Shown piece after piece: positions 6,583-63,502 of a stretch of DNA of 64,000 bases. The translations under genes and the position numbers were made by a program. This DNA comes from Acanthochlamys bracteata (taxonomy: Eukaryota > Streptophyta > Magnoliopsida > Pandanales > Velloziaceae): the NCBI GenBank assembly GCA_019914995.1, contig CM034130.1:10478001-10542000 (forward strand), in the 5' to 3' direction. The notes beneath the pieces were generated by a model, which ran no database searches, was not told the origin of the DNA, and worked only from the letters and a program-made list of their open reading frames with translations. Numbering within the stretch: the first letter of the stretch is position 1; the number at the start of each line of letters is the position of its first letter.

Positions 6583-8097
6583 TTATTCTGCTAAAGCAAT
6601 ACTTCTTCTAGGTAAATTTTCATAACTATAACTAGATGCTTCTGTTGTTGGTTCAGATTTCTGGAATGGACTAATTGCAGATGCTGGGCTTGATTCTGTA
6701 GATTCCATAAGTTCAACTTGACTTATTTCGCTAAGTAAGTCTAATTTTTCTTTACTAAAATATTTAATTCTAAATGAATTATCTAATTCTTCTAATTTTT
6801 CTAATTCCATTTTTATGGGTGCTACTGCATCTAACAGTTTCTGTTTAATAGGCTGGATATATTCTTTAGTTACTTCACCACTTTTTATTTTTTGAACAAA
6901 TCTCTCTCTTATTTGCCATATTTCTAATCTTTTATCCCATAGTTCTCTAATTTTATCATGTCTTTCTTTTAATTTAAAATGAATACAATCTTCTGCTAAA
7001 TTTTCTTTACGAATATTTCTTTGACAATCATAATAAAAGTATTCATTGGTATCTAAATTCCAAGAAACTTCTAATCTTAATAAATCTTCAAAAGTTCTAA
7101 CTGTATCCATACTTGTTTCTGGGCATTCTATAACTATAGGATTTTCATAAATTGTTGTAAATTCATTCATGCATTCTTCTGCTTCATTATCTTTTAATGT
7201 TGAGACAGGATTATAATCAGTAAATCTAACACTTGTACTGTTTCTAGCATTTTTATATATCATACTAGTTTCTGGAATAAGAATGTTTGATTTTTGATGA
7301 AATTCATCAAGAATCCATTCTCGTCCAGCTAAAGTTGTAGGGTCTATCTTATTGGCTTTTATCATTTTAATTCCTTTAGAACTTACTAGCTGAGTAACAT
7401 CATCCATTTCTAATTTATATTTAATATCTTCATTATTTGTTAATCTTCCAATAAATCCTATTGAGAAAAATAAATTGCTACCGGCAGTCTTTGCTTCATA
7501 TCCTTTAGTCTCAATTCCTATCTTCAGATGTTGAACTCCTTTTGTAATACTAGTTAAAAAGTTTGGACAATAATAAAACATGTCTGCATTTTGAGACATA
7601 TCTACTTCTATAGTAGCTATTACTGCTTGTTCGGGGTCTGTCCATAAATCATTATAAACATAAAGTAATACTTTGGTTCCTAAATAACTTCTATCTAATC
7701 CTTTAACTCCTATAACTAATAATCCTAAATGTATAAAATTAAATTGAGAGTTTCGTAATATTTTATAAGCTTCTAGACTAATAACATCTAATATTACATT
7801 TTGTCCTCCTAAGCATTCTACTTCTTCTTCTCGTTTTCTAACAAAAAACTGAGTCTGATTTACAAAATTTTCTACCTTTCCTATATGATATAATTCTGTT
7901 GGTGATATAAGATCTAAACCATTTTGTCTAAAATGTTCTAAATTTTGTTCTGAATTTATAATTGAACCTACTTCAATTAAATGTTTTTTATTTCTACTAA
8001 ATATTTTACTTAAAAAGGTCTGTTTTGATTTTGGAACAATTTTTCCTGAACTTTGTTCTGCTAGTGTTTTAGAACTTCCACTAAAAGAGGTTGTCAT
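6583..8097 (-). pseudogene. Endogenous virus ORF3 N-terminal part: movement protein region, 504 codons
   Basis: Open from ATG at 8097 to TAA at 6583-6585. Residues about 95-260 look like a 30K-superfamily movement protein as found in caulimovirids: a hydrophobic strand-rich core with GLDRSYLGTKVLLYVYND and a later IEVDMSQNADMFYYCP, which precedes a conserved glycine-rich segment. Residues about 340-480 are highly charged and helical, the usual linker toward the capsid. In badnaviruses this would continue in one polyprotein; here a single TAA interrupts, and the same frame continues beyond it. I place it as the N-terminal part of ORF3 by its position after ORF2. Confidence 0.75.
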
Positions 8098-17516: not shown

Positions 17517-18715
17517 TTGAAGATTATGATATTCGAAAAGAAGACGTTATAAACTATTGGATGGGACTCGAATTTCTTAGAAGAAATTGTGACATCTCAG
17601 AAGCTCTATGATTGGGATAAGTTTCTGAATCAGATGCAGGCATGGTGAAAATGAAGGACGTGCACAGGACTTTGCATTCTTGTTAGCTTCTGAATCTTTA
17701 CAGTAAACTGCGGTTGATGAGAACATGTTCCGAGTCCGAAGTGAATAGATTGCAAGAGCCAGCAACAACAGTTTGTCTCCCTTGTGGATAAATTTATGAA
17801 AGAACTGCCACAAGAAGTGTTCTTTAAATCCACAACTTTTCTGACATTATTTAGATGCATCGCTTACTTTCTTAGGCGAGCCTCCATGGAGGTCGGTTAT
17901 CTAGTGAAGTTAAAGCATGCATCCGAACCTGTCTTCCACATATATTCTTAGACAAGACAACATTTATGGTATATTATTGTGAGTTATACTTAGAAAGTTG
18001 AAGATTAATTCATTGTGGCACGCGTCCAAGCTTCTTCTCTGGAAAGCATCTGTCGATGGCCAAGTAAATCATGGCGTAAGGTCAAGTATATATCTGTTAG
18101 GTTTGAGCTACTCAAGCTACAGGTGAATCAACACTGGCAAGTGCCTTCACGAACTCTATGTGAATAACTGCACAGGTTTTGGACAAGTTAGCTTTCGAGG
18201 TTTCAGAAGGTGAAGAGATAGCTTACCCTCATGGTAGATTGCAGGCTTTGAGCCTTACCATCTTGGAAGAACTCCGACAAAATTTGTGTGGGTTGGAGTG
18301 CAGCCATCTTTACACCTGTAAGCTAGATTCGACGATCATGAATTGGTCCCTTTTGAGAAACGTTACATGGATTGATTCTACGGCTGCCATGCCTAGCAAG
18401 GCTTTCCATATATATAGCTGATTGTGAAGGAATGGAGCGAGTAACAGGTGAAGAAGAAAACGAGTTTCTGAAACTTGAAGAAGCAAAAACATGAAGTCTT
18501 TGCATGCCTTCAACGATAGGAATTGGATTGGCTTCCAAACTAGGTCAGCATATGTGACGGTGTTTTGCTCTTCCCCTCTTCAACATCAACTAGAATCCAC
18601 GGATGCAAAGGCATGGCCACCAGCAGCAACAAGCTGTTTCTCTTGCTGGGAAAAACTGGACCAGGAGAATGATAGCATTAGGTGTTCCTTGCAACCCTTC
18701 TTCAGTGAACTATGA
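17517..18715 (+). pseudogene. NB-ARC-LRR (RPS2-type) relic
   Basis: A chain of short homologous stretches in changing frames. DIRKEDVINYWMGLEFL (17530-17580) matches the RNBS-D/winged-helix segment of the intact NLRs in this window. MVKMKDVHRTL follows at 17641, in the MHD position. VSLVDKFMKELPQEVFF (about 17770-17825) matches the first LRR. KCLHELYVNNCTG (about 18140-18175) and LRNVTWI (about 18350) match later LRRs. DCEGMERVTGEEENEF (about 18420-18470) matches the paralogue segment HGMQRVIGEEENEF. Many stops and shifts are present and the 5' half is missing. It lies about 28 kb from the intact cluster and points to an older local dispersal of the same family. Confidence 0.75.
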
Positions 18716-28129: not shown

Positions 28130-29661
28130 TTAAGGCATCCGCAGAGTTTCCTTTGAAGGAATCTTGAGCATATCAATGCTCCCACTGAAAAAAAATCTCC
28201 TATCCAAATAACCTGCATAATCTATATCAATAAATTCTTTGACAATAAACCTAGATCTTGTGTAACACAATGCAGCATTCAAGGTTCCTTTCACATACCG
28301 AAGGATCATTTTCACTGTCTTCCAAGGCTCAATGCGAGGACATGCCATAAATCTACTTACCACTCCCACTGCATGTGCAATGTCAGACCGAGTGCAAATT
28401 ATGGCATACATTAGGCTTCCTACTACTGATGCATATGATATTCAAGACATTCCTATCATCTCTTGCTCCTCGCTAGGGGATAACAAAGAGAATAGTTTAA
28501 GACTAATAGAGAGTGAGGTAGATATCGGCTTACCACCATACATGTTGAACCGTTTCAACATCCTCAGATAACTAGTCTGAGACAGCCGAATCTCTCTATT
28601 GTCTCTATCTCGCCATATCTGCATCCCTAGGATTCTGTTTGTCTACTCCAAATTTTTTGTATCGAATTCACTAGCCATTTGAGCATTCAATTGTTGGATA
28701 CAACCTATGCTTGGATTTGCCACAAGTATATCATCCACATACAGCAGTAAGATGACAAACACACCTCCCTCAAATCTCTTGATGTACACACAAGAGTCTG
28801 AGACCAACTTGCTGTATCCAAAGCTCCCGATACAAGAATCAAATCTCTTATACCAACATCACAGTGCTTGCTCAAGCTCATAAAGAGATTTGGCCAACCG
28901 ATAAACCAAATCCTCACTGCCTTCACGGCGAAGCTTTCTAGCTGGACCATATATTTCTCATATCCAAACTCCCCGTATAAAAATATCGTTTTGACATTGA
29001 GCTGTTTAAGATGGAGAACCGATTATGCACACAGCGTAAGACCACATTAAAACGTACCACTAGAGAGATGATCTCATCAAAATCGATCCCTTCTTTTGGG
29101 CATAGCCATTCACCTCCAGCCGAGCACAATACCGTTTTATTTGATCATTTCTGCCTCGCTTAATCTTGTAGATCAATTTATTCCCAATAGCCTTACGACT
29201 TTAGACCAGATGGACCAGCTCTCATGTCATATTTTATGAAGTGATTCAATCTCTTCATGCATAGCTTCCATCCACAGAGACGTATCTGGACTCTCCAGCG
29301 CTTTTTTGAGAGAAAATGACTCTCCTTCTTCTGTGAATAAGTAATATGCAGGTTGAGATAACTTCATAAAATAATCTTCATACCTTTCAGGTGTGTTTCT
29401 CTTGCGAGTGGAACGCCTAAGAGATGTAGGCCTGGAAATTCCATCCTCTTTCATGTGCTCATTAGCTGGTTCAGACTCCAAATTAGGATCGTATTTTCCA
29501 TCATTCTCTTCCAATACTGATGTGGTCATCGCTGGGAGTGATGCCTCCTTCTCCCTTACATCATCGCCTTCAGTCACTCTTTGCAATTGGTCCTCCGCAA
29601 ATATGATATCCCTGCTGAAGATAACCGTATGGGCAGTGGGATCCCATAGATAATACCCCAA
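28130..29661 (-). pseudogene. Copia pol remnant (integrase C terminus to reverse transcriptase)
   Basis: Minus-strand fragments: 29661-29227 includes RRSTRKRNTPERYEDY and the ALESPDTSLWMEAMHEEIESL lead into reverse transcriptase. Near 29100 comes KEGIDFDEI. Near 28720 the active-site region is visible on the complementary strand as a diverged VDDILV. 28624-28442 holds IRLSQTSYLRMLKRFNM, and 28411-28130 holds YAIICTRSDIAHAVGVVSRFM with ILRYVKGTLN. Frames change repeatedly, so nothing functional remains. Confidence 0.85.
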
Positions 29662-45260: not shown

Positions 45261-45811
45261 GAGGTACATAGAAACATATATCAACTGTAAACTTAAGTCC
45301 CCATGTCTGCTTCTGCAGATCAGAAAGCATTTTCATTTTACTAGCGAGGTCATAAAACAAATAGCAGCAACTTGTTACTTGCATGAACACAAACTAAAAC
45401 CCTAAAGAGTTGCCTCAGTATATATGCTCATAACCTGGTTAAGGAAGATTTAACAATCTTCAGGCAGAAAACGAACAGCATTAAGTCACCCCAATGTTAT
45501 GGAAATTCAAACAGGCATAGAATACTAAAGAGATAACAAAGAGCGAATGGTGGAGGACATCATTAACTTTTATTGAAAATATCTTAGCAACTAAAATCCG
45601 ATCATCCTTAACCACCCTACACAAGTTTGGACATGGCATTCTAAAATTTTATAATGCTTAACAATATCTCCATCTACCACAACTAAAAACCTGATATACT
45701 AGTTTGGGCCAGATAGACTGTACTAAGCGTTTTGTAAGCAATATGATTTCAAGTACATTAAAGAAGCTAATAAATAAAAATTCAGATACTTTTCCTTTGT
45801 AACTCCAGTTG

Positions 45812-48800
45812 TTACATATCAACAGTTTGTTTGCTAAAATGAGATTGAAAATTCTTCTTCATCCTAGCATTCTTCCACTTCAAATTATACCACCATGACT
45901 CATCAGCATGTATCTTCAAGGACCTATTATTAGTGGCCATTTTATTGCTGAAAGGCAGTTGCTTCAGTTTTTTGCATTCAATTATCAAAACTGATACCAG
46001 CGATGGGAGAGTCAGAACGTAATGACATATGCTAGACAAGTGTGGAAGTGTCTGTAATTGCAGGATACGGAGGTTGACAAATGCTTCATCTGCTGCTACT
46101 TTCTCTTTGAGAAACTTGTTTTCTTCCTTACCAATCACTTGCTTCAATCCTTTGCATTCTAGCAAGCTTAGCTTAGAAAGATGAGGAAGCCACATTACCC
46201 ATGTAACGTTTTCCAACTTGTGGCAATAAGAGATGACAAGAATTTTAAGATTTTCAAGGCATACAGGAGGTTCTGATCTTTTCCATGTGACCTTGGAAAG
46301 CTCTTCCAAGAACATCAGTTTCAGAATCTGCAATTGCTGAAAAAGTAGGGTCTGTTCCTCTCCTGCATATACTATTATCTCATTCAAGCTATCACAAGGG
46401 CCTATCTCCAACTCTTGAAGACCTGATGTGCCTCTGCCAATGCCAAATAGATTGAGCAGAGAATTTTGCAAATATGATATTCGAAGCCATCTGATTGGCA
46501 AATCATTGACCATGTTGAGTGTCCTGCTCTTGAAGCAAGCCATGCCAATAGCTTTAAAATTTTTCAGCAAGCTTTCTACTGACTCTATATCAATAGTTGC
46601 ATGTGGAAATGCATCAAGGACTTGAAGCGATGATAATCTTGAGATCAGACTTGGGTATATTGTTCCAATGTCATTGTGCCTTAGAAGGAGATGCTGTAGT
46701 TCGCTCAACTTACCCAATTCCAATGGTAATGAGCGGATGCTTGTCGAGGAAAGGTTGAGATACTTCAACTTAGTCAGAGATACAATGCTGCTAGGAACTT
46801 TATCTAATAAAGTATGTGACAAGTCCAAGTAAGTTAAAGATGTCATGACTTGAAAGAACTCAGAAGGAATCTTCTTCAATTTGTTGTCAGTAAGCATAAG
46901 CACTGAAAGCCTGGGGCAATCAAGAAGCTCTTTGGGTAATTCCTTCAATCCAGTATCAATAAGAGATACTCTCTCTACCTTATTCCACTGTTTTATATCA
47001 TTTAGTGCTTCACCTAGCACTTCAGCCTTTACCACCCACAGATAGCTTCTAAATTCGACGGCCGACCAGACTGCAAAGTCCCTGATAATGTCCTCTAATT
47101 TCACTACACTTTCATCAAAACCTGTGTCTAATAGGCCAACTTGTTCAAGTCTTCCAAGAATAGCATATCCTTGATCATATGCTTCACTGATTTCATTTAC
47201 CTCTATAAGCCCAAGTGCCATCCAGCAAGTGATAAGCTCTTCTTTTCTTATATTATAGCCTTCGGACCAGAACGAGCAGCTCAAGAAGCATTCTTGTAAG
47301 GTTTTATCCGGTAACCGATCATAAGCAAACTTGAAAAGTGGAAACATGGAATTCTTCATACCAGAAATGTTGATGGACTGTGAATCTTCAAGTAACGATA
47401 TAGCATGTTCCCATTCTGTAGCTTCTTCCTCAACGGAAAGGGCCCGTCCTGCCATAACAAGAGGTAGATGCAAGCATTGGCATTCTGCCACTATGTGCAG
47501 AGCAAGGTTCTTTATGGTTGGATACAAAGAGATTGTTCCTTTTCTTACATTATGTATGAACAAGTCATAAGCCTTCTCCGAATCCAGTCGTTGCAAACGC
47601 AATGGTTTAGCCTTGATTTTATCGAAAAGGTTTCCAGAGTTTGTTGTGAAAATCACCTTATGCTTTTGTTGATAAAGAAGCTCTTCATCATAAGGATGAG
47701 ATATTCCTATAGTCTTCAGATCAAGATCTCCCGTTAGGTCATCCAGGAGGAACAAGACATCTTTCTCTTTTAAAAACGACGAGATGAAGCCCGTGATGTT
47801 CTCAGTTTTAGCATGTGTATCTTGTGTTAGTGTCGAATTCAGATCATATTCTGTCGGAGGCCAACTCAGTTTAATGACTACGGCCTTCTGAAGCTTTTCT
47901 TTGCTGACGTTTGATACTTCGGCCCATACCAAGTACTGAAACAACCTTTTGTCACTATCAATGTTGCCGAGGTCAAGAAAGTAGTTCTTCACAACTTGCA
48001 AAAGTGTAGACTTCCCTACTCTGCTCTCACCCCAAACTCCGACAAACTGAACAGAGTCTTTTCTTATATAGTGAAGAATCTTTTGTAGGTATGGTTTCAT
48101 TCCAGTCACATTCAACTGGTTTGAAATGTTTGAAGGAATTTGAGATGATTTTTCTACTTCCTCTTCAATCTCTATCGATGCTCCTTTTGATGAGCTAGGT
48201 CTGCTGTGAGAAGCCATCTCAGTAAGTTCACCTTGATACTTTCTTGTTGAAGGGAAATCCTTTATCGTCATTGCACCACTTCCTTTATCAATTGAAATTG
48301 CTGGGATTGATACCTTTGGTGATTTTTTTAACTCCTCCATACGAGGTGCTTTCCCAGTCAACCGTGGACTCTGAGTATAAACTGGTTCGTCTGTCGACGA
48401 CCTATAAATGCTCTGTAATGAACTATTTGCTGGTTCTTGCACTTCTCCTTCTGTAGGTTCTTCCGAGATCAATTCTGGTGTTGTTGAATCAGTTGTTTTC
48501 AGCAGAGATAAGCTGTGAATATTGCGAAACGAGACCTCTGATGACTTTGTTTCATCTTTCTTCAAGGGTATTCCCCCGACCAGTTCAGATGTCGCTGCCT
48601 CAGTTGTTACTTCCTTTGATGAGCTAGGAGCATCATGGACCTCCAATTGTTCTTCTGCTTCCTCATCTGTTGAAGATGACATCTCAGTCAATTCTGACGT
48701 ATGTACCTCCTTATGTTCTCCCTTCGGTGATATAAGTAGTTCTCCTTGAGAAAATTCTTCATGAGTCTTAGCTTCAGGAATATCATCATGTTCGTATGAT

Positions 48801-51800
48801 TCTAGTTTATCTTTGATGATTCTGGAGAATAGAACAGTGCCTTCAGTATGGAGGTTCTGGACTTTTTGGCTTGGTAATCCACCACTTGCTGAATAGAACT
48901 TCTCTTTGAGAGGCTCCAGTTCTGGGCCATTTAACACCAGATAGTGCAGCTCAGGCAGATGCTCCACGTACTTCAAGTTTGCGCAACTGGAAACAACGAG
49001 AATTCTAAGTGAAGGTAGCTTGGCAACTCTCACAAGACTAGGGCTGTTATTGATTACAAGCTCCTTGATATGGTGAAGATTCTCAATCAATTGCAACTTG
49101 TAGGCATCATTGATGACTAACGAGGTCAAAGCTGTGGCTTGATTCAGAAGACCATGGGGAAGAGATCTCAGGTCGGAGCACCCATTGAGTATCAAATGCT
49201 TGAGACTGGGTAACAGTACCACCTGTTCTTGATTCATCACCTTACATCGAGTATCAGATTCTTCCAGCCATGACCACTCTTTCCAGATCTTCATATTTGA
49301 AAGTGTAAGCCTCTCTAACTTGGGGAAGAAAGGTAAGTGATTATGCCATCGAACATCGTCTCTAACAAAATCCTCTGGAACAAATACTTCAGGTCCAATG
49401 TATCTCAGGCTTTGCATATCTGAGACATAGAGGTTAGCAAGATTGGGTAGCAAGCACAAAGTTGGTAGTTTTACACAAAAACGGCAGCCCTCTAGCTTCA
49501 ACTTCCGTAGGACCGGAAACTGCCGTACTGTTAACCAGCTAGGGAATGCATAGCCAAAGTATCTGCAAATTGTGAAATCCTCGATACATGGTGGAGGACA
49601 GAGCCCTTCAAACACTTCTGCCAGTCTTTCAGATGATCCTTCACTAGCCTCAAGTGTATCCGAGCAACTTAAAAATAACTTGGTCAGATGAGATTTCTCT
49701 ATTAAGTCTGCTGTTCTGGCCTCTGCAATGCTTGACGCTCTCTCCAACTTATTTATGGATAATGATCTAAGTAACTTGAGATGCCTAAGATCCTCCAGAG
49801 TGCAGCACTGACTTCGGTGGTTGATGCCACTGCTACTTGGTACCACGAAGGCATCAAGTGTCCGAAGGTGATGAAGCTTTATAATCTCTTTTGGCAGATT
49901 GTCTATCCGTGTATCTTGCATAGTGAGGCATCTTAGATTTGTCAAATACCCAATGTCCTCGGGAAGATTTTGCAATTTGTCGCACCCTTCAAGGAATAAA
50001 AATTGCAGATTTCTGAGAAGCTTTATGGTCTCCGGAACATCCCAAATCTCACTATAACGCAGATCCAGGTATCTCAGGTGTACAAGGTTTCTGATCGAAA
50101 CTTGCAACCTCTCAATGGTTGAACCACGAATACTTAAAACCCTGAGATACTTTAGATTACTAAAACCATCAATCTCCGCTTCTTCAGAAAGATGAAGCCC
50201 AATGAGGGTTCTTAGAGAATATTGTCGTCTTACAGCAGAAGGAATGCCCTTCACCACATCAGTAAGCAACAACCGCCTTGTCTTCTTTTGTAAGCTAAAC
50301 TCTGAGCTTGATCGTCTTGTATCCTGGAAGCAGCATTCACGTCCTGCTAGATGCCTAGCTAGAGAGAGCAGGAGGTCATGCATTTTACAACTAGTCGTGA
50401 TAGGGTTAAACTGCAGAAGACTTCTCTCGACTAGCTCATCAAAGTACTCAACTGCTTTCTCTTCAAGCAGACAGTCATGACTTCTCACGAACCCCTCAGC
50501 AATCCAAAAGCAGATAATGTCGTCTCTTCTAACGTCAAAGTCTTCAGGAAATAATGCAAAGTACAAAAAGCATAACTTCAGGTGAGGTGGCAAATATTCG
50601 TAACTCAGATTTAGTGCCATCGGTACCCTGTGAGGAATCTTGCTGATTGACCATGCAGGACTCTGAAGAACCATTTCCCACAAAGATCGCAATCGCAACT
50701 TTGGTCGCAATACTCCAGCAATTGCCCTGATAGCCAGCGGAAGACCATTGCATTTCTTAACAATCTTCATCCCTAAATCCCTTAGTGCTTCCGCTTCTTG
50801 TTCTTCATCATCTGGAAATACCATCTTGAACAACAGTAACCAACTATCTTCCATTGACAACTTGGCCACCCTGCAACAGAAAACTGCCCCAATGTCATTT
50901 GCAATACCTTCATTTCTTGTGGTCACTAAGACTGCGCTGCCTGCACCAGCAGCTGATAATGGCAATCCCAAGAGATCGTGCCATACCCTTGCATTCCATA
51001 CATCATCCAAGACCAGGAAGATCTTCTTCCCTTGAACAACTCTAGAAAGCAAGACCTGAAGCTCCTTCTTGCAGTCTGCCATAACCGGGTCATGCCCTAC
51101 GTCTTTGATGATGCTCTGGAGAATACGTATCTCATCAGCATTGTCCTTGGAGACACAAAGCCATATAGGTTCAGTCTGGTGAAAGTTTGCTCTCAATATG
51201 TTACTGTTGAAAATCTTTTGAGCAAGGGTGGTCTTGCCAATTCCGCCCATACCCACAATTGCGTAGATTTGGATGTTTCCATTGGTGTTATCTTCCTTAG
51301 TCAGCAACTCGACAAACATTTTAGTATCATTTTCTATAGCACTCCCAACATAATCAGGTTCCACAAGAGGGGATATAATTTGTGTGATCGATCCTGCAGA
51401 ATCGTATCTACTAAAACTAGGACGAAGATGGGCATCCCTATATATATAGTACAAAATATCCAGCTTATGGATGAGTGTTTTTATTCTTCTGCCGATTTGA
51501 TGAGCTATGTTTATTCCTTTAATTTGTCTACCAGGAGAGAAACATACCAAGGAGGACGATTGCTTGTTGTACTTGTCTGCCGCAACCATGAAATCCTCAG
51601 CAAAATCTTCAGCATCGTACATGAAGTCTTTGAGGTCATTCAGAAAAACATCATTAACCGTGTCCGCAGACGGCCAGGTCACACGATTTTCCACAACAGG
51701 TATTATCCATGACATTTTTCCTTTGAGCCGCTCTATCTTTTCTGAGACTCCACGGATCCTCCTAGCCCTCGCTTCCGTGGCGCAGGAATACAGTAGCTCC

Positions 51801-51838
51801 ATGAGATGAGGAAGGAATGCCTCGGGAACCATAGCCAT
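45812..51838 (-). CDS. Tandem double NLR: CC-NB-ARC-LRR fused to a second NB-ARC-LRR, 2008 aa, intronless
   Basis: Predicted intracellular immune receptor in one uninterrupted frame. Half 1: Rx-type coiled-coil (1-150; EDVID-like YDAEDFAEDFM), P-loop GMGGIGKTT (196-204), kinase-2 FLVLDDVWN (273-281), GLPLAIRAIAG (364-374), RNBS-D CFLYFALFPEDF, MHD SCKMHDLL (485-487 intact), then LRRs to about 980. An acidic Ser/Thr-rich linker spans about 980-1240, with two similar phrases (ELTEMSSS and ELTEMASHS). Half 2 is RPS2-like: MKPYLQKILHYI, P-loop GVWGESRVGKSTLL (about 1266-1279), kinase-2 VLFLLDDL, KVIFTTNSG, an MHD position changed to KLED, then LRRs to the end with the SWWYNLKWKN tail. Half 2 is a close paralogue of the 59.2 kb gene. 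A usual CNL is 900-1200 aa. The start is the first ATG of a good CC domain. An unseen intron in the linker cannot be excluded. Confidence 0.9.
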   Translation of the reverse strand: MAMVPEAFLPHLMELLYSCATEARARRIRGVSEKIERLKGKMSWIIPVVENRVTWPSADTVNDVFLNDLKDFMYDAEDFAEDFMVAADKYNKQSSSLVCFSPGRQIKGINIAHQIGRRIKTLIHKLDILYYIYRDAHLRPSFSRYDSAGSITQIISPLVEPDYVGSAIENDTKMFVELLTKEDNTNGNIQIYAIVGMGGIGKTTLAQKIFNSNILRANFHQTEPIWLCVSKDNADEIRILQSIIKDVGHDPVMADCKKELQVLLSRVVQGKKIFLVLDDVWNARVWHDLLGLPLSAAGAGSAVLVTTRNEGIANDIGAVFCCRVAKLSMEDSWLLLFKMVFPDDEEQEAEALRDLGMKIVKKCNGLPLAIRAIAGVLRPKLRLRSLWEMVLQSPAWSISKIPHRVPMALNLSYEYLPPHLKLCFLYFALFPEDFDVRRDDIICFWIAEGFVRSHDCLLEEKAVEYFDELVERSLLQFNPITTSCKMHDLLLSLARHLAGRECCFQDTRRSSSEFSLQKKTRRLLLTDVVKGIPSAVRRQYSLRTLIGLHLSEEAEIDGFSNLKYLRVLSIRGSTIERLQVSIRNLVHLRYLDLRYSEIWDVPETIKLLRNLQFLFLEGCDKLQNLPEDIGYLTNLRCLTMQDTRIDNLPKEIIKLHHLRTLDAFVVPSSSGINHRSQCCTLEDLRHLKLLRSLSINKLERASSIAEARTADLIEKSHLTKLFLSCSDTLEASEGSSERLAEVFEGLCPPPCIEDFTICRYFGYAFPSWLTVRQFPVLRKLKLEGCRFCVKLPTLCLLPNLANLYVSDMQSLRYIGPEVFVPEDFVRDDVRWHNHLPFFPKLERLTLSNMKIWKEWSWLEESDTRCKVMNQEQVVLLPSLKHLILNGCSDLRSLPHGLLNQATALTSLVINDAYKLQLIENLHHIKELVINNSPSLVRVAKLPSLRILVVSSCANLKYVEHLPELHYLVLNGPELEPLKEKFYSASGGLPSQKVQNLHTEGTVLFSRIIKDKLESYEHDDIPEAKTHEEFSQGELLISPKGEHKEVHTSELTEMSSSTDEEAEEQLEVHDAPSSSKEVTTEAATSELVGGIPLKKDETKSSEVSFRNIHSLSLLKTTDSTTPELISEEPTEGEVQEPANSSLQSIYRSSTDEPVYTQSPRLTGKAPRMEELKKSPKVSIPAISIDKGSGAMTIKDFPSTRKYQGELTEMASHSRPSSSKGASIEIEEEVEKSSQIPSNISNQLNVTGMKPYLQKILHYIRKDSVQFVGVWGESRVGKSTLLQVVKNYFLDLGNIDSDKRLFQYLVWAEVSNVSKEKLQKAVVIKLSWPPTEYDLNSTLTQDTHAKTENITGFISSFLKEKDVLFLLDDLTGDLDLKTIGISHPYDEELLYQQKHKVIFTTNSGNLFDKIKAKPLRLQRLDSEKAYDLFIHNVRKGTISLYPTIKNLALHIVAECQCLHLPLVMAGRALSVEEEATEWEHAISLLEDSQSINISGMKNSMFPLFKFAYDRLPDKTLQECFLSCSFWSEGYNIRKEELITCWMALGLIEVNEISEAYDQGYAILGRLEQVGLLDTGFDESVVKLEDIIRDFAVWSAVEFRSYLWVVKAEVLGEALNDIKQWNKVERVSLIDTGLKELPKELLDCPRLSVLMLTDNKLKKIPSEFFQVMTSLTYLDLSHTLLDKVPSSIVSLTKLKYLNLSSTSIRSLPLELGKLSELQHLLLRHNDIGTIYPSLISRLSSLQVLDAFPHATIDIESVESLLKNFKAIGMACFKSRTLNMVNDLPIRWLRISYLQNSLLNLFGIGRGTSGLQELEIGPCDSLNEIIVYAGEEQTLLFQQLQILKLMFLEELSKVTWKRSEPPVCLENLKILVISYCHKLENVTWVMWLPHLSKLSLLECKGLKQVIGKEENKFLKEKVAADEAFVNLRILQLQTLPHLSSICHYVLTLPSLVSVLIIECKKLKQLPFSNKMATNNRSLKIHADESWWYNLKWKNARMKKNFQSHFSKQTVDM

Positions 51839-51929
51839 CTTGGCGGTGACTTGGTAGGGAGGAAAAGAAAGACGAAAAGAGGGTGGTTTCAGAGAAGCTA
51901 GGTCAAGAAGAAGAATTCCGAGAGGCCAA

Positions 51930-52190
51930 TTAGGGCGTGTTTACCAAGCAGGAAAAGCGGAGTTTTTTAATGAAGTGGAATTTTTAAAAAATAAATTTAA
52001 AAAATAAAATAAAAAATAAAAAATATTTAATAAAAATAAAATTTTATATTAATTATATATTTATAGTAAGTTATAAATTTGAATTTTAAAAAAATTTATT
52101 GATAAAAAATTTATTTTAATTTTTGTATGTATTTATGTTAAATTTGAGTTTAAGGAAAGTAAAATTTAAAGGTGTTAGTAAACACGTTCT
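51930..52190. mobile_element. MITE-like element with GCGTGTTTAC ends
   Basis: The left end AGGGCGTGTTTACCAAGC and the right end GTTAGTAAACACGTTCTT are imperfect inverted repeats. The AT-rich interior is non-coding. Confidence 0.6.
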
Positions 52191-52297
52191 TAATTGATCT
52201 GCTAATTCACTATTTATTATCGATAATAATTATATATAATTTTTGGTATATTCCGTATCAATTAGTTGAAAAGTTAAATCGTCCATTACTATTTAAG

Positions 52298-52560
52298 TGC
52301 GTGTTTCAGTAAATGAAAAATAAAAAATAAGAAGTGAAAATTTTTTTTAAATAAGTTAAAATTAAAATTTAATTTTTATGTTTGAATTAATTATTGGATG
52401 AGTTAAAAGTGAATTCAAAAAAATATATAATAAAATTTAAATTTTATTATGTAAAAATTAAAAATTTGAATTTTTAATTTTATTTATAATTAAAATATAA
52501 AAAATTAATAAAATTGACGAAAAAATTAAAATTTTATTAATTTAAAACACGTTCTAAATT
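52298..52560. mobile_element. MITE-like element with GCGTGTTT ends
   Basis: The left end GTGCGTGTTTCAGTAAATG and the right end TTAATTTAAAACACGTTCTA are imperfect inverted repeats. The AT-rich interior is non-coding. Confidence 0.55.
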
Positions 52561-53004
52561 GATATATTTCGTATGATTAACGTTTCAATAATTCTTTTGT
52601 GCCGTTAAATAAATTCTTTGATTTCCAAATATCACTCTCATTAAAGCCATTAGCTTATAACAAAATTATTTTTATTATAATCTTTAATTACTTGAGTTTT
52701 TATTAGTGTTTGATAATACTTCCATTATTTGTAACAAGAATGATGAAGAATTACATTAAACGCGCAGAACTGAATTCTATAAAAAATAAATTTATAAAAG
52801 TAAATATTTATAAAAAATATTAAAAATAATTTCAAATTTAAGTTTTAAATTTTGATTATTTTAAATATATACATTTTTTAATTTCCAAACTAACGAAAAC
52901 GAAACAATTTCTAAACATTTAAAACACGACCTCGAACAAAATATAACAACTGTATATTAGAAATATATTTCAGCACAGCAACGTGGAATATTGTTCTATT
53001 AAGA

Positions 53005-53270
53005 AAGTGTTTGGCGGTGCTTATGAAATAGAGCTTTTTTAGAATAAAAAATATTTTTATTTTTTTTGAAAAACGAGCTATATTTTTTTACTTCCAAAAA
53101 AATAATAAAAATATGTAATAAAAAGATCTCACTCCGTAGAATTTTTCTATATTTTTTAAATTTTTAAATAAATTTTTTATATACTTTAAAAATATGTATT
53201 GAAAAACGTAAAATTGAAAAAAACTAATAAGCTGCTTTCAAACGCAGTCCCGAACAGCCTCTAAGGTGTT
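53005..53270. mobile_element. AT-rich MITE-like repeat, copy 3
   Basis: Runs from GTGTTTGGCGGTGCTTATG to GCTTTCAAACGCAGTCCCG, with the shared core ATTTTTCTATATTTTTTAAA and ATATGTATTGAAAAACGTAAA. Non-coding. Confidence 0.55.
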
Positions 53271-53500
53271 TAGTTCAGCATTTTTTAATATATTTTTTAT
53301 TTTATATTTTATAAATATTTAAAAAATTTATTTAAAAATTTAAAAAATATAAAAACAAATTTACAAAATAAAAATTTTTTATTATATATTTTTATTATTT
53401 TAAAAAATAAAAAAATAAAATTTTTTTTTAAAAGTAACAAAAAATATTTTATATTTTAAAAAAATTTTATTTTATAAGTAATTTTAAACACACTTAAAAA
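53270..53500. mobile_element. AT-rich MITE-like repeat, copy 4
   Basis: Starts GGTGTTTAGTTCAGCATTTT and ends TTTATAAGTAATTTTAAAC. Its core matches 34050-34310 closely. It lies directly against copy 3. Confidence 0.55.
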
Positions 53501-53866
53501 TTTGCTTGCACAAAAAAATCTTTTTAGATATAAATTACTAAAACATGAATATAAATTCTTTAAAATATACTATTAAATTATATTTAAATATTTAAAAATA
53601 ATTTTTAATAAATTAATTTATAAAATGAGTAAAGATGTCTAATTTAAATATTTTATTATGCAAATAACTAACGAAAGCGTGTCATAATCATCATTAATCT
53701 CATTTAATAGAAAAAAATTACTGAAACTCAATTCAGAGTTGATAAGTTTTGATGCCGAAGGATCAATTCAGAGTTGATTTTTAATTACAAGTCATGGGTA
53801 GTTGATCGGTGTCTGATGATAACCATTACCAACTTTCCGATCTTTCCTCCCCTTTGACATTGAGCA

Positions 53867-56800
53867 ATGCCAGCCGTTGTGTTTTCGGTTATCGACCCGT
53901 TCGGGAAGTATGTGGTTGATCCGATAGTGAACAGAATCAAGTATATCGTATGTGCCAAGGAAAATGTGGAGGAGGTTCGCGAAGCAATGGATGATTTGAG
54001 AGCCAGGAGGGCCGATGTTTGGAATGCGATTGAATCGGCCCAACGTGAGGGCAAGATAATTAAGGAATTGGAAGAATCGGAAACTTGCGGGAACTGGATG
54101 AAGGAGGTATGAGTTCATGCATCAAATTAGTAGGATTGTTGTTTCTTTCTTTTCTTTTTTTTTTCCTCGTCTTTCCTTCCCCGAGATCTTGTGTTGAACA
54201 GCCACCTTGTTCTTGTGTTTTGAGAATTTGGGTAGATATGCAATTTTAGAAGGTCTGAATTGCCTGAGATAGTTGATCAATAATTACTTTTTTTTTTGTT
54301 GTTAGTAAAGTCTACCGCCAATTTTGGTTTGGTAGACGTCTAATAAAGTGTTATGAAACTTTATATGAAAGGTACAACTTGTACTCGAGTAAGTGAAGGG
54401 GGTGCTTGATTTCAGTGCTTGATTGACCATGTAAGAGCTTTTAGGTAAACGGTCTACTCAAAGCATTGCAATTGATCGTAGGTTCTCTTGCAGGTGAAGG
54501 ATGCTGAAACTAAAGTGACTGAGCTTTCCCTAAACTACAATCGGAGAAGCCTTCGAATTTCTAGAGATTTTTCATTAAAATTCTGGACAATTTATCGAGT
54601 TGGCAAGAAAGCTGAAAAACAGCATGCCAAGATTAAAGATTTAGTTAATCGAGGATCCAATTTTTGGGATATATCCAGATCGCCTTCTCCTGTCCCTATT
54701 GAGATTGAAACAACTGAAAGCTCAAGAGCAGAGTTGGGTTTGGAAGTGTACATAAACAAGATCCTGGACTACCTGAGGGCTGAGGCAGCAAAACCAGTGG
54801 GAATATGGGGAATGGGTGGAGTAGGAAAGACCAAACTTTTGAAAGCCATTCAAAGGAAGATTACTCAGGATCCAGAATCACAGTCTATTTTCAGTCAAGA
54901 TGTGCATGTAATCTTCGTTGATGTATCTAAACCATTTAGCATGGAAAGGCTTCAAAAAGACATAGTGCGAAAGCTTAGTTCAATAGCTCGGGAGCTAAGT
55001 GTTCCCGAACTGCAAGACCAGAAAAGTTTCATTTCCAATTTTTTGGAAAACAGAAACTTCTTGTTACTCCTTGATAACCTATGGAACTGTTTGAGCCTCG
55101 AGGACATTGGAATCCCACATGGCATGGGGGGATGCAAGCAGAAGGTAGTATTTACAACAAGATTTAAAGATGTGTGCCTGGACATGGGAGCAGAAATAAT
55201 AAAATTAGAGTGCTTAAGTGTTGTCAATGCACGATCTCTATTTGACCATGAGCGTGGAGACTCTATCCTTCGTAACAGAAGCATGCAAGTAGTTGAACAA
55301 GAAGATAAAGTTGTTGAAGAATGCTGTGGGTTGCCTTTGGCGCTGGTTGTTATTGGCCGCGCCGTGTCTGAATATCAAGATCTTCAGCATTGGGATCGTG
55401 CAGTTAGAGAATTACAAATGGCAGACTGCAAAGCATTTCATAGTACTATGACGAAATTTGTTCTTCCTAGTTTAAAGTTGAGCTTTAATACATTGGACGC
55501 CACTCTAAGACAATGCTTCTTGAGTTGTTCAACATGGCCTGAAGCTGGTGATATTGAAAAAGAAGAACTTCTTCGTTGTTGGATGGGGCTTGGGTTAGTT
55601 GGAGACATCAGCGAAGCTTATACTATAGGAGATCAGTTTCATCAAAAGCTTCAGAATGGTTGTTTGTTGGAGGACGTTCTTAAGGATCATAGAGTGAAAA
55701 TGCATGGCGTGATGCACGACTTAGCAGTTTGGATAGCTTCAGGATGTGCAGGATGGGTGGACGAATGGATGACAAGACGTCCTTCAGACAATGATTGGGT
55801 ATCGGCAGAACGAGTGTCTCTTGCTGGTAGAAATGATTTCAAGCTGCCACCAGAGTCACTTGGTGCTTGTAAAAGGCTCTCAACATTGATCCTTAGAAGT
55901 ACAACAGTGCTGGATCAGTTTCCATCTGGCTTTTTTAGAAACTTGAGATTCCTTAAGTACTTGGATTTGTCATATACAAAAGCTACAAGTCAAAATGAAG
56001 TTAAAAAACTTCCTGACGGCATTGGTGATCTAGTGGCCCTAAATTTTTTAAACTTGTCGCATACAAATATAGAATCACTACCGACTACATTGACGAAATT
56101 AGTCAATTTGAAGTATTTTCTCTTGCGACATACTGCTGTAGTAAAGGTATCAGTTGATTTGATCTCAAAATTGACATCCCTAGTGTTGCTGGATGGGTTT
56201 CCATCGACTTCATTAGATCTAAACTCAAAAGAATATTCACAAGCAAGATTGAAGGCGCTCGGGCTAAAATGCCAAAATGAAGAGAGTCTTAACATCCTTC
56301 ACAGAATGCCTACTAATTGGCTAAGTGTACGGGAAATAGAGAATGTGTCTTCCATCTCACTTGAACTATTAGGCAGCAACATGAGCGAATGTCTTCAAGA
56401 GCTGGAGTTGATTGGCTGTGATGTGGAGACACTAACGGTAAAAAGTGTTCCACCTTCACAAACAGAAAGAAATATACCTCTGCAGCAATTACGGGTTATG
56501 AGATGGCAATCTTTGAAAAGGCTCTCGATGATTGAATGGGAAGGAGTAGACCCAGTCCTGTCTTTCAGAAGTCTTCAAAAGCTAAACATTACATCTTGCG
56601 CTAAATTGAAGAACTTAACATGGACTTTGCGGTTGCTGTCTCTTGTAGAGTTAACCGTGGCCTCATGTCCTGAATTGGAAGGAATTTACGATTGTCCTCA
56701 ATCAGGAGTGAGTGATATTCCTCAAGTGGAAAGAATTGTTAATGGCCCCCAAGAAGGTGTTGTTTATATTCATCAAGGAGGAGTTGGCTGTAGTACTCAA

Positions 56801-57502
56801 CTAGAAGGAGTTTATGAAAATCCTCAACTTGGTGATAGTCCTCAATCGGGAGGACTTGATGATAATCCACAAGTGGAAGGAATTGGTAATGGTCTTCAAC
56901 CAAAAGGAGTTGGTTGTTGTCCTCAAGTAGGAGTAGATTATAGTGCTGATCAGTCGGAAGGAGTTTATATAAGTCTTAAATGGGAAGGAGAGGGTGACAT
57001 TTCTCAATTGGAAAGAGTTGATGCTAATCCTCATGTTGAAAGAGTTGGTAATGGTCCTCAACCAGAACGAGTTGGTGATAGTCCTCAAGCAGGAATTGGT
57101 TGTAGTACTCAATCTGAAGGAGTTTATGAAAGTCCTCAAGCAAGAGGAGTAGGTGATAGCCCTCAATTAGAAGGAGTTGATGATAATCCTCAAGCAGAGA
57201 GAGTTGGTAATAGTCCCCCTCAACTGGAACAAGATATCTTCTCTAAACTTGAAGTTTTAAAATTGGAAGACCTTCCCAATCTATCTACCATATATCCACA
57301 TGCTTTGACATTTCGCTCTTTAAGATCAGTTTGCATATGTGAATGCAACAGGCTGAGACGTCTACCCTTTACTCTGGAGATGGCCAGAAGTAACAGAACA
57401 TTGTCCATCAAGGTTTCTAGATCTTGGTGGGCAGCCTCGATGTGGGAGAATGACGCTGGCAGAATATCTTTCGAGAAGCATTGCGATTTTGTAGGAGAGT
57501 AA
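53867..57502 (+). CDS. RPS2-type CC-NB-ARC-LRR protein with a 9-residue repeat array in its LRR, 1082 aa
   Basis: Predicted NLR immune receptor. Two exons: 53867-54106 and 54494-57502, joined at phase 0 (GAG|GTATGA ... TTGCAG|GTG). Exon 1 has the typical RPS2-class start (KYIVCAKENVEEVREAMDDL) and a coiled coil to about residue 130. NB-ARC: P-loop GMGGVGKTKLL (186-196), kinase-2 FLLLLDNLWN (about 268; Asp-Asn instead of Asp-Asp), KVVFTTRF, GLPLALVVIGRA, RNBS-D CFLSCSTWPE, and KMHGVMHDLAVW (about 482), where the MHD Asp is Gly. LRRs follow. At about 810-992 a run of 9-residue units interrupts the LRR, after which the fold resumes (FSKLEVLKLEDLPNLSTIYP) and ends with the SWWAASMWEN tail. It is divergent from the double NLR. 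Confidence 0.9.
56680..57230 (+). repeat. Coding minisatellite, about 20 units of 27 bp
   Basis: In-frame units with consensus (G/D)(D/N)(S/N/G)PQ(x)E(G/R)V, for example GDSPQLEGV, DDNPQAERV and GNGPQPERV. Units are diverged and a few are short by one residue. The array also keeps the reverse frame open (57166-56801), which is a by-product of the repeat. Confidence 0.85.
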
Positions 57503-59207: not shown

Positions 59208-62200
59208 TTACAAGTGCTCTCTGAAATATGATTGGAAGGAAGACTTGTTCTCCCACTTCAAGCCCTCCCACCAAGATGCAGGACACTTGATCTCGAGAGA
59301 CCCGTTCCTATTGATCATGTTCGGGTGGAGAGGCAGTGAATCAAGCTTCTCGCAATCAACTATGCAAACCGACGTCAGAGAACGGAAAGAAAGACGGTGG
59401 TCACATATGCTAGACAGTTCAGGAAGTGCTATCAGGTCTAAGACTCGCAGGCTGGCAAATGCTTGGCGTTCCGTTGCTTCACCTTGCAAGAACTCGTTCT
59501 CTTCCTCGCCAATCACTCGCTGCATTCCATGGCAATGAATTAAGCTTAGCGTAGTAAGAGATGGTAGTCGCAAAACCCACGTTACATTCTTCAGCATAGG
59601 ACAATAGGAGATTATTAGGACTTTAAGATTTCGAAGGCACTGCTCTGGCTCTAAACGCTTCCATATAACTGATTTGAGACTTTCCAAGAACGTCAGCTGG
59701 AGAATTTCTAACCTTCCAAGAGGTGGAAGCTCAGTAGCTTCAGAAGTTCGCCCACCTTCTACGACTTGCTCTTTAAAATCATCGTCCGTTTTGGAAGTTA
59801 ATACATCTACAACTAGTTCTTCCAAACAGCTGCAGCTGCTGACCTCAAGTTCTTGAATGAAATTTCCGTTGTTGGCACTCAAATTGTGAAGTCCAAGAGA
59901 GGTGATCAGGTGCTTTTCTAGAGAGCTGTTCAGGTATTTCAAGTAACGAATTCTCAACCATCTAATTGGCAAGAGACCAACTTTACTGAGAGTCTCAGTG
60001 TCAAAGCAACCCAACCCCATAGCTCCCATTACTTTTATTGATCGCAGAAGTTCTACGGACTCCAAATCGATAGTAGCATGAGGGAATGCATCTAATAGCT
60101 TGAGCGACGACAAACTTGAGATCAAATAATGAGAAATTGTTCCTATGTCAGTTTCCCTTAAGAGAAGGTACTCCAAAATTTTCAACTTACTTAATTCTCT
60201 TGGAAGTGATCTGATACTTGTCGAAGATAGGTTGAGATACTTCAGCTTAGTTAGAACGCCAATTCCTGTAGGGACCTCTCTTAATATTGTGTTTGACAGA
60301 TCCAGGTAAGTGAGAGACGCACTCACGCATTGGAAGAATTCTGTAGGAACGCCTTGTATATAGCTCCTGCTAAGGATCAGGACTATAACTTTTTCGCAAG
60401 CATAAAGTTCTTGTGGGAGTTCTCTAACTCCACTATCCAGTAGAGATACTATTTCTGCTGATTTCCAACGATCTATCGGTACAGTTGGTTCTTTCCATAG
60501 TGTTCCTGGTCTTATAATCCATGTGCGTTCCTTGCATTCAACGGCTAACTGTGATTCTGCTAGCTCAAGTATTATTTCTTGCACCTTTACATAACATTCA
60601 TCAGGGGAAGATTCTAGTAAGCCAAAATATTCGAGACTTTTGAGAAGAGAGTGACCTTGATCATAAGCTTCAGCCATGCCATTTGAAGGTTTTATCAAGT
60701 CAAGCCCCACCCAGCAACTTATAACATCTTCTTTGCTACCCTCATGCCACAATAAGCAACTAAAGAAACACTCTTGCAAGATATCATCTTGGAGACGATT
60801 GTACACAAACTTCAAAGGCGGAAAAATGTAACCCTCTAGATTCAAAATGTCAGCGTCGTGAGACTCTTCCAACGATTGTAGAGCATGTTGCCATTCATTA
60901 TGATCTTTCTCACCATACATGGCGTGTCCTGCAATGGCAAGAGCTAGAGGTAAGCCACCACATTCTTTTGCCACTTGCCTCGCAATCTTCTCTATCCTAG
61001 GGTCTGCAGAGATAGTTTCTTCTCCAGCATTCTCCTTGAATAGTTGCCATGCTTCTTCAATCTGTAACCGTTCCAGCCTTAGTGGTTCTGCTTCCATCTC
61101 TATGCAAACTTTATATGATCGTGTTGTAAACACCACTTTGTGTTTGTGCCATCCGCTGAAGGCAAATGACTGGACAGGATGTGATAGTCCAATTTGCTCA
61201 AGGTTGAAAGTCTTTGGTAGGTTATCAATGAGAAATAAGATGTCTTTATTTTGTAGAAAAGAGTTAAGCAGGAAGCTCAAGACGTACTCCTTCTTATCAG
61301 AATCACTCTCTGGGTAACCTAACTGTGACGGCACTTGCGATTGGAGATTCTCAGCTATAGCCATCTGAAGCCTCTCCATGCTGTGTTCTCCCGACGCATC
61401 AACAAATAGAACATGATCAAACAAACTTGTCTCGCCGTGGTAAATGTTTACTGCTCGGAGTAGGGCAGAGTTGTCCGTGCTATTCTCTCCCCATATTCCA
61501 ATAATATCGTTCCCATCCTTGCTGAGGCAGTTAAGGAGCTTTTGCAAGTAAGGCATCATCCCAACTCCACTCAGAAATATCTTCCGAGAGTAGGAAACGT
61601 CCCGTGTTGTCTCTTGAGTGATATGTTGATTGTCCTCTTCTACCTCTCGAGCGGCGTAAGGTTCTCCTCTATACGACTCAGCCTCTACAGATTCTGCATC
61701 AATTCTCTCTGAATATGGAATTTCGCTATTGATGTTTTCCCTTGATTCCTGCAAGAAATACAAGTGACCCTCAGGACCATCTTGCAGGACCTACGAATGA
61801 GTAATTAAGTAGCAAATACACTGACAAGAAGGATAAACAAGTCTGATCACGTACTAAGACATAATCTCTAAGTTGTTGTATGTAATCAGAAACTTCGTAG
61901 CTGGCTTCAGTCGGTACAGATTCTGAATCATTTCTATCAAAAGACGGGATCTCGCTGTAGATGTTTTCTATTGGTTCCTGCAAGAAAGACAAGGGGCCCT
62001 CAGGATCATCTTGCAAGAAGAATGAGTAATTAAGTAGCAAATACACTGACAAGAAGGATAAACAAGTCTGATCACGTACTAAGACATAATCTCTAAGCTG
62101 TTGTATGTAATCTTCAACTTCGTAGCTGGCTTCAGCCTGCACAGATTCTGAATCATTTCTCTCTGAATAGGGAATTTTGCTATAGTTGTTTTCCGTTGAA

Positions 62201-63502
62201 TATTCCTGCAAGAAAGACAAGGGACCTCAGGATCATCTTGCCGGAGGAATGAGTAATTAAGTAGCAGAAACACTGACAAGAAGGATAGACAAGTCTGATC
62301 ACGTACTAAGAGAAATTGTCCAAGTTGTTGCATGTAATCTTCAACTTCGTAGCTGGCCTCTGCAGCTTCAACATTCTGTATAGGTCCCTAAACAAATTAG
62401 CCCTCGCAAGTATATATTAATTTGTTAGCTTCGTTCCAAGGCTTACAAAATGTACGTAATGCGTTTTCTACAAATATTTCTAGTCTATGTACTCGAACAA
62501 AAATTCGCCTTTACAATACTGCTTTCAATAACAGCATATTTGACAATTTAGAGACTTGAAATCAGTGCTGCTATGCAGATAGATATCGAATTACAATATA
62601 AGTTGTTGATTTACCGTGCTATGGCGGCTGTCGTACGTAGTTTCAGTTATGATGGACCTGGCCAGGGTAAATGCTCCGTCTAGTGGAACGCCGACTGCTA
62701 TCATAGCTGCCAGCTCGCGTGTGCTGTACAAAAAAATCAATGGATCCTCCAAAACAGAATATGTCAGTTCGAAGGTGTCCCAAAATATGCCACGGAGCAG
62801 ATTCATGAAGATATAACGCAGTGAGACACTGCATAATCCGACGAGAACAAGGCTGCCCAGTCTGTAATCTTGCATAACACCTTCCAAATAGTGTAATACA
62901 TAGCTCAGTACTGTAGCATAGTTTATCAGGGACCGAAAATATTGAGATATCAAGTGCACTAGATAACCAAAGAACACTAGCGGAATACATGAAGCTAGCC
63001 AAAGGATCGTTTCTAAGACAATAGTATCGGTGATAATATCCACCACAATGAGTGTGACATGAAACAGCCCAAGATTCATAAGAATTAGCACTGCTAACAT
63101 TTTGCCATGCTCCTCAAGAACGTTAAGGTACTGTCCCATCCGCCTTACTACCGGAGCACCTAAAAGATCGACTATGACAGGCAGAAATAAGATGATCACG
63201 ACAAATTTCCACCATAACGAGCTGAGAATTGACGTTATATCTAATACAAATAGTATGAACAGCGATAGAATATGGCTCAAGAATATGAGAACAGGTTCCA
63301 CCGTCGATGCATCCTCCACGAACCCGAATTTCCTTAGACAGATGGGAGCTAACAAATCGCTGGTGGCCACCATCACCGCACTCGCGAATGAAACATGATT
63401 TATCATGCCGAGCACAATCACAGTAACCTCTGCCCAGAACGACTCGGTTGTCATGAGAATGGGAGTAGTCGACAAGACTGCATTTACTCCCTCGGAATCC
63501 AT
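59208..63502 (-). CDS. Multi-pass membrane domain fused to NB-ARC-LRR, five phase-0 exons, 1252 aa (predicted)
   Basis: Exons 62615-63502, 62307-62387, 62080-62205, 61855-61977 and 59208-61748; every exon is a multiple of three and every junction is phase 0 with GT-AG. Exon 1 (296 aa) has about six or seven hydrophobic segments (roughly 23-45, 70-94, 97-117, 135-160, 164-186, 214-236, 252-272); I do not recognise the family. Exons 2-4 encode near-identical linkers (EASYEVEDYIQQLRDYVL). Exon 5 is RPS2-like: MMPYLQKLL, a P-loop position reading GENSTDNSALL (491-501) without the GK[ST] core, kinase-2 ILFLIDNL, KVVFTTRSYKVC, GLPLALAIAGHA, MHD position VQEI, then LRRs and the SWWEGLKWEN tail. ATP binding looks unlikely. 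An in-frame TAG lies just upstream of the exon 1 ATG. The alternative is two genes: a membrane protein ending at 62591 and a separate NLR. Confidence 0.75.
61855..62387 (-). repeat. Tandem triplication of an exon-plus-intron unit, about 226 bp
   Basis: Exon 3' ends fall at 62307, 62080 and 61855, a spacing of 227 and 225 bp. Each is followed by the same intron start GTACGTGATCAGACTTGTC and by TCCTTCTTGTCAGTG. The exons encode variants of EASYEVEDYIQQL. The start of exon 5 (NINSEIPYSERIDAESVEAE) looks like a fourth, diverged copy of the unit. Confidence 0.9.

Follow-up and report, generated by a model that had tools for sequence, protein, structure and literature searches.

We examined a 64,000-nucleotide stretch of the genome of the flowering plant Acanthochlamys bracteata (contig CM034130.1, positions 10,478,001 to 10,542,000; hereafter the window, with coordinates counted from its first letter), which holds a cluster of genes for nucleotide-binding leucine-rich repeat (NLR) receptors. 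One of these, the fused gene, is an open reading frame (ORF) of 2008 codons at 45812..51838 on the minus strand, whose translation contains two NLR cores in series. Its ATG lies at 51838 and its stop codon at 45812-45814, with no internal stop between them; the frame is open from stop to stop over 45812-51940, and on the plus strand many stops interrupt this interval. An original prediction, made from the letters of the sequence, had placed two nucleotide-binding cores in this frame; its coordinates are exact and Pfam finds two NB-ARC domains, to which we add the strand that it left unstated. The Pfam matches give the order Rx_N, NB-ARC, winged helix and leucine-rich repeats (LRR), then a linker, then a second NB-ARC, winged helix and LRR, that is, the CNLNL layout (coiled coil [CC]-NB-ARC-LRR-NB-ARC-LRR) within a single open frame. 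All features of the fused gene given below are on the minus strand.

The N-terminal half carries every hallmark of a CC-NLR for which we looked in its NB-ARC domain. The Rx_N coiled-coil domain (aa 9-96, 51551..51814; PF18052, E 3.6e-9 on the fragment, above the cut-off) includes an EDVID-like motif, YDAED, at aa 74. It is followed by the first NB-ARC domain, NB1 (aa 185-414, 50597..51286; PF00931), by a winged helix with the MHD motif (aa 429-494, 50357..50554; PF23559), and by LRRs of the R13L1/DRL21 type (aa 557 to ~1009, 48812..50170; LRR_14 at 557-819 and PF25019 at 681-808, the C-terminal limit being estimated). NB1 has the P-loop GMGGIGKT at 196, a kinase-2 motif and MHD at 486; in an aligned motif table key residues are kept at all seven listed motifs, so that P-loop, kinase-2, RNBS-B, GLPL and MHD are all as expected of a CC-NLR. 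Queried against solved structures, NB1 finds ZAR1 best (6j5t, E 1.4e-46), then NRC1, MLA13 and Sr35 (to 2.4e-38), with the G10 protein 9h2l much weaker (1.4e-21); ZAR1 is also the best solved match of the N half as a whole, across aa 22-782. The description of this core as Rx/RGA-type with intact P-loop, kinase-2 and MHD was thus sound.

The C-terminal half is of another kind. It consists of the second NB-ARC domain, NB2 (aa 1254-1507, 47318..48079; PF00931, E 2.4e-26), a winged helix (aa 1526-1589, 47072..47263; PF23559) and an LRR region (about aa 1642-1974, 45917..46915; PF13855, PF23247) with matches to LRR_8/LRR_4 and LRR_RPS2. NB2 keeps the P-loop (GESRVGKS at 1270) and the kinase-2 aspartates, and departs at three of the seven listed motifs. 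Its RNBS-B is TTN against TTR, with loss of the arginine; its GLPL is aligned as CLHL, in a stretch CLHLPL where a two-residue shift would retain LPL; and its MHD region reads KLED. An RPS2-type core with intact P-loop and KLED had been predicted correctly, while the MHD change is not the sole one, and the set of P-loop, RNBS-B, GLPL and MHD that makes a canonical nucleotide switch in a CCG10-NLR is incomplete in the C half.

The solved structure closest to NB2 is 9h2l, entitled an octameric G10-resistosome from wheat (2.8e-23; the next is at 1.3e-8). In a maximum-likelihood tree of 10 NB-ARC domains (six from solved structures and four from the window, including those of two neighboring NLR genes, A and B; LG+G4, unrooted, no outgroup), NB2 groups with gene B (97/99), then with gene A (97/95), then with 9h2l (100/100). 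NB1 falls outside this G10 clade, drawn beside its long branch with only 37/43 support; it is 29-34% identical to CC-NLRs, and 25% to 9h2l, 24% to gene A, 20% to gene B and 19% to NB2. The two domains are thereby set apart, NB2 within the G10 clade and NB1 outside it, nearest the ZAR1 type by structure ranking. By these comparisons, two different NLR subclasses are present within one ORF, a CC-NLR as the N half and a G10 NB-ARC in the C half.

No G10 coiled coil was recognized before NB2, either by Pfam on the linker (E up to 1) or by tblastn for similarity to the N-terminal exon of gene A (E up to 1e-3). This is a weak test, with no library model for the G10 coiled coil, no InterPro signature for it (PMC8559963), an exon in gene A that itself has no Pfam match, and distant similarity being possible. 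On the domains recognized, the C half is an NB-ARC-LRR of G10 origin in which no signaling domain is recognizable, and not a full CCG10-NLR.

We scored coding potential as log-odds in 80-codon blocks, using the two neighboring NLR genes as the coding and non-coding DNA of the window as the background training set; as proof the score is limited by this choice of NLR genes and by the unusual amino acid composition of the linker. It is positive over the whole fused ORF apart from the final 88 codons (the blocks from 1921 and from 2001). At the first AUG, position -3 is A and position +4 is G, and AT-rich intergenic DNA begins directly upstream of the ORF. On the coding strand AATAAA occurs at 45574, 238 bases past the stop codon, and inside the ORF at 45946, 51485 and 51515. 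The two halves differ in GC content (0.435 vs 0.397), as might be seen had the assembly joined two separate genes; we consider such a join very improbable, since the window contains no N and a false join could only have arisen by landing in frame within the open linker.

The linker (aa 1010-1245, 48104..48811) is acidic and rich in serine and threonine, as had been predicted, and is 236 residues long instead of about 260; it has 46 D/E, 24 K/R and 59 S/T, with no C and no W. No Pfam family matches it up to E 1. Across the linker, the blocks that begin at codons 1041, 1121 and 1201 have log-odds per codon of 0.25, 0.22 and 0.16 in the frame of the ORF; the other two forward frames score negative, and of the reverse frames one rises slightly above zero in the first and second of these blocks (0.10, 0.03). 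None of 20,000 sequences simulated by a first-order Markov model with linker composition was free of stops over 236 codons, and the linker is therefore no chance open frame. Its T content is 22%, against 40% in the intron of gene A, so that its composition is not intron-like. Splice sites were scored with plant matrices, taking the sites of gene A as reference; the best donor in the linker scores 2.9 and that of gene A 4.5. A single coding exon is most likely, and the prediction of an intronless frame is favored by the absence of stops, the coding character of the linker and the lack of a clear intron signal, within the limits of a weak splice test.

The locus might instead yield two proteins that act as a linked pair of the ordinary sort, a CC-NB-ARC-LRR (CNL) and a G10 NB-ARC-LRR without CC, which would be separated within the linker by an alternative promoter, by splicing or by processing. 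In-frame AUGs at aa 1053, 1167, 1190, 1208 and 1247 could serve it, as could a TATAWA at 48070 on the coding strand, 34 bases past the linker and just inside NB2 (the ORF has three other TATAWA sites); a weak donor at 48706 (2.0) with an acceptor at 48413 (4.1) would excise 294 nt, a multiple of three, so that a facultative in-frame intron (48706-48413) may exist. Against it, the linker at 48104-48811 has neither AATAAA nor TATAWA on the coding strand and is not T-rich, and its 236 open codons would need explaining if untranslated. We think this explanation unlikely.

Functional phosphorylation of the linker, which had also been suggested, was rejected, because neither CK2-like sites (11, against a mean of 11.5 in shuffled linkers) nor proline-directed sites (4 against 3.7) are commoner than expected. 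As to its origin, tblastn of the window up to E 1e-3 found no similarity between the linker and the N-terminal exon of gene A, and kinship to the repeated exons of gene B was rejected on the same search. Of the linker, a gapped blastp alignment to gene B takes in only the last ~50 residues, too weakly for a claim of homology. One pair of 14-bp direct repeats lies inside the linker and gives only a hint of internal duplication.

Gene B is the nearest relative of the C half, at about 44% identity over 799 aligned positions. Over 743 codons dN is 0.45, dS 1.62 and dN/dS 0.28 by NG86, and 0.48, 1.34 and 0.36 by YN00; dS is near saturation, dN/dS is a pairwise average, and several segments were not computable, including the NB part of this pair. 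Identity at the three codon positions is 0.60, 0.73 and 0.45, the third being most diverged. Together these values speak for purifying selection on the C half/gene B pair over most of its history; they date the split of those two and give no date for the fusion. A recent copy from gene B was rejected on the identity of about 44% and dS of about 1.6, and a recent internal duplication because the two halves align at only 20-22% identity (tblastn, E 1.7e-7 and 7.9e-7); blastp of the ORF against itself listed the full-length self match and no other. The suggestion of a recent fusion of adjacent genes lacks support: tblastn of the N half finds no second Rx-type NLR in the window, and even the nearest relative of the C half, gene B, stands at about 44% identity. 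Pattern searches gave 9 matches in prokaryote genome contigs and 107 in viral contigs, none confirmed, as expected for such collections.

The fused gene could also be a relic, a chance fusion in an NLR cluster that is untranslated or neutral and whose frame has stayed open through youth or through selection on the N half alone. The three altered motifs of NB2 suit a relic, as does the loss of the P-loop in its sister gene B, and NLR surveys report chimeric models of no known function (PMC9661794, PMC4709456). Yet 2008 codons have gathered no stop or frameshift, the coding score stays positive up to the last 88 codons, third positions have diverged from gene B beyond first and second ones, and several chimeric NLR models of Eucalyptus are reported as differentially expressed on challenge (PMC4709456). 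We regard a relic as rather unlikely.

Gene A (53867..57502, plus strand) is a G10-type NLR by Pfam, tblastn and the tree, with splice sites placed by inspection and with plant matrices. Its N-terminal exon (53867-54106), which has no Pfam match, presumably encodes a G10 coiled coil; an intron (54107-54493) separates it from the NB-ARC-LRR exon (from 54494, by Pfam). Its motifs are GMGGVGKT, TTR, GLPL and KMHG, with kinase-2 as DN and not DD. A 27-bp tandem repeat of about 14.6 copies (also 54 bp x 4) at 56827-57216 in the LRR region codes for a low-complexity insert that is missing from the two relatives of gene A. The fused gene (51838) and gene A (53867) are divergent, their start codons 2.0 kb apart, and between them is a very AT-rich stretch (52001-54000, GC 0.19). 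A compatible, non-exclusive extension of any reading of the fused gene would pair the two, with gene A as helper of the G10-type C half. Head-to-head arrangement is frequent among sensor/executor pairs (PMC9528084, PMC5819176), which makes gene A a candidate partner; nevertheless kinase-2 of gene A is the DN form, and in RefPlantNLR no helper activity is assigned to CCG10-NLRs (PMC8559963). We consider the pairing improbable.

Gene B (59208..63502, minus strand; Pfam, tblastn and tree, the upstream exons to 63502 being possible) is a G10-type NB-ARC-LRR and the sister of the fused C half. Its P-loop is lost (GENSTDNSA), its kinase-2 is DN, and VQE stands at MHD. Upstream is a 296-codon hydrophobic exon (63502-62615) for which neither Pfam (E up to 0.01) nor the PDB (E up to 1) gives a match; three short phase-0 exons (81, 126 and 123 nt) join it in frame to the NB-ARC-LRR exon in our model. 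Gene B may thus carry an N-terminal multi-pass membrane domain, or the membrane part could be a separate gene instead. A 225-bp unit occurs in three copies (85% matching) at 61678-62357, over the short exons and their introns; in the model this is a tandem exon duplication that codes for an acidic ~41-residue repeat.

Elsewhere in the window, a fragment at 18375-18473 (plus strand) resembles, at 45% over 33 aa (E 3e-4), the final LRRs of the G10 genes; it is flanked by stops in its own frame and is a probable NLR relic. A 504-codon ORF at 6583-8097 (minus strand) has a viral movement-protein domain (PF01107) and is probably an endogenous plant-virus element. A retroelement polymerase remnant lies at 29227-29661 (minus strand; PF25597, below its cut-off), and Rfam finds nothing at gathering scores over the window.

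The reading that we prefer, and to which we give an even chance, is that the fused ORF is a genuine protein-coding gene of this NLR cluster, with one protein of ~2000 residues as its product, and that this protein is a CNL of the executor type in which a degenerate G10 NB-ARC-LRR serves at the C-terminus as sensor or regulator. The N half would be the executor, holding ADP at rest; on release it would exchange ADP for ATP and oligomerize via its own NB-ARC, and the CC helices of the oligomer would open a calcium-permeable pore. The C half would build no octameric resistosome of its own and would act in cis to sense or to restrain, as integrated domains or P-loop-independent sensors such as RGA5 and RRS1 do. 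The linker would be a flexible tether that holds the halves at a 1:1 ratio and prevents their segregation. Such a division of labor, proposed in outline by the original prediction, fits the anatomy of an intact N half and a degenerate C half without recognizable coiled coil. CC-NLRs form pentamers and CCG10-NLRs octamers (PMC12856790), so that it is hard to picture both halves oligomerizing in one protein, and the P-loop is reported to be dispensable in the sensors RRS1 and RGA5 and essential in their executors (PMC9528084).

Several observations weigh against this preferred reading. In an ungapped comparison without HMM, the N half matches only 4 of the 13 fixed positions of the MADA consensus, which leaves its role as a stand-alone executor unproven; the MADA alpha-1 helix is itself present in about 20% of CC-NLRs (PMC6944444). 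The NB-ARCs of RRS1 and RGA5 are canonical, and in Pikp-1/Pikp-2 both switches are required (PMC9528084), so a degenerate NB-ARC is no proven mark of a sensor. Moreover NB2 may still bind nucleotide, to judge from the kept P-loop and kinase-2 aspartates, and part of its MHD change is a trait of the clade, because the third residue also differs in gene A and in 9h2l (KMHH). A G10-type NLR deprived of most of its coiled coil still kills, by way of a short N-terminus (PMC11467418), which counsels caution in assuming an inert C half. Constraint on the C half is weak in places: for the ARC part against gene B, YN00 gives 0.46/0.66, and in the 50 aligned codons ahead of NB2 (dN 0.99, dS 1.55, NG86) constraint is not evident. 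In the linker the best acceptor (4.1) comes close to that of gene A (4.7), and other sites in the ORF outscore those of the linker (donors to 5.1, acceptors to 8.7), so that the splice matrices discriminate poorly and the test made with them is weak. A symmetrical double receptor, in which each half senses and signals independently and the two are merely co-expressed, would suit the P-loop and kinase-2 aspartate pair intact in both halves; it would sit poorly with the lack of a coiled coil recognized before NB2, given the limits of that search, and we hold it to be quite improbable.

The tandem layout has precedents. CNLNL models are listed in grapevine (PMC3782705), and two CNLNL and one NLCNL among 118 NBS genes in banana (PMC13300587); NLNL models are listed in Dendrobium officinale (PMC9661794), blueberry (PMC5821885) and Eucalyptus (PMC4709456), and a multi-species survey includes an NB-LRR-NB-LRR-NBS model that also bears a retroelement domain (PMC11126693). 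The 472 unique NLRs of RefPlantNLR yield 488 NB-ARC domains, some small ones apparently being partial duplications (PMC8559963). The available text of the CNLNL and NLNL surveys gives counts and not the joined subclades or a mechanism. RPP2A, a TNTNL that works in resistance (PMC3782705), is a tandem NLR with a reported function; it differs in being of the TIR class and in repeating within one class. As to the earlier claim that a joined pair of different subclasses is rare, tandem CNLNL genes were already reported, and the fused gene is probably an uncommon form of a layout counted in a few plant genomes. With the layout known, what is new here, by our assignment, is that the second NB-ARC is G10 and that degeneracy is confined to it. 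We found no description of a CC-NLR joined to a G10-NLR in the literature searched, outside which most subscription journals fall, so that absence is not proven.

Compared with single receptors, the N half shares with the ZAR1/MLA/Sr35 type its Rx_N, NB-ARC, winged helix, LRR and all listed NB motifs, and the fused gene differs from that type by the second NLR core behind a linker and by the weak MADA match. With CCG10-NLRs (RPS2; 9h2l) the C half shares NB-ARC clade, LRR_RPS2 and best solved match, and it differs by lacking a recognizable G10 coiled coil and by its departures at RNBS-B, GLPL and MHD. The likeness that we propose to the pairs RGA5/RGA4 and RRS1/RPS4 is by analogy, in that the switch of one partner would be needed and that of the other might be dispensable. 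Unlike those pairs, the halves here are covalently joined, come from different subclades and have no integrated non-NLR domain; the NB-ARCs of RGA5 and RRS1 are canonical, unlike NB2. A broader possibility, which we put forward as doubtful, is a natural single-chain sensor-executor receptor that joins the pentamer-forming CC-NLR class to the octamer-forming G10 class, in a cluster where one G10 NB-ARC-LRR module has three N-termini: in gene A a presumed coiled coil of its own, in gene B possibly a multi-pass membrane domain, and in the fused gene an entire CC-NLR.

Contact and signaling between sensor and executor NLRs are still being resolved pair by pair. If the preferred reading is true, a covalent CC-NLR/G10-NLR fusion would fix both the identity of the partners and their stoichiometry, would bear on the molecular constraint suggested to hinder fusion of two NLR types (said of CNLs and TNLs; PMC3782705), and would offer a template for transferring paired receptors into crops as a single gene. 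If only the N half works, the fused gene would be an example of NLR clusters producing large inert appendages.

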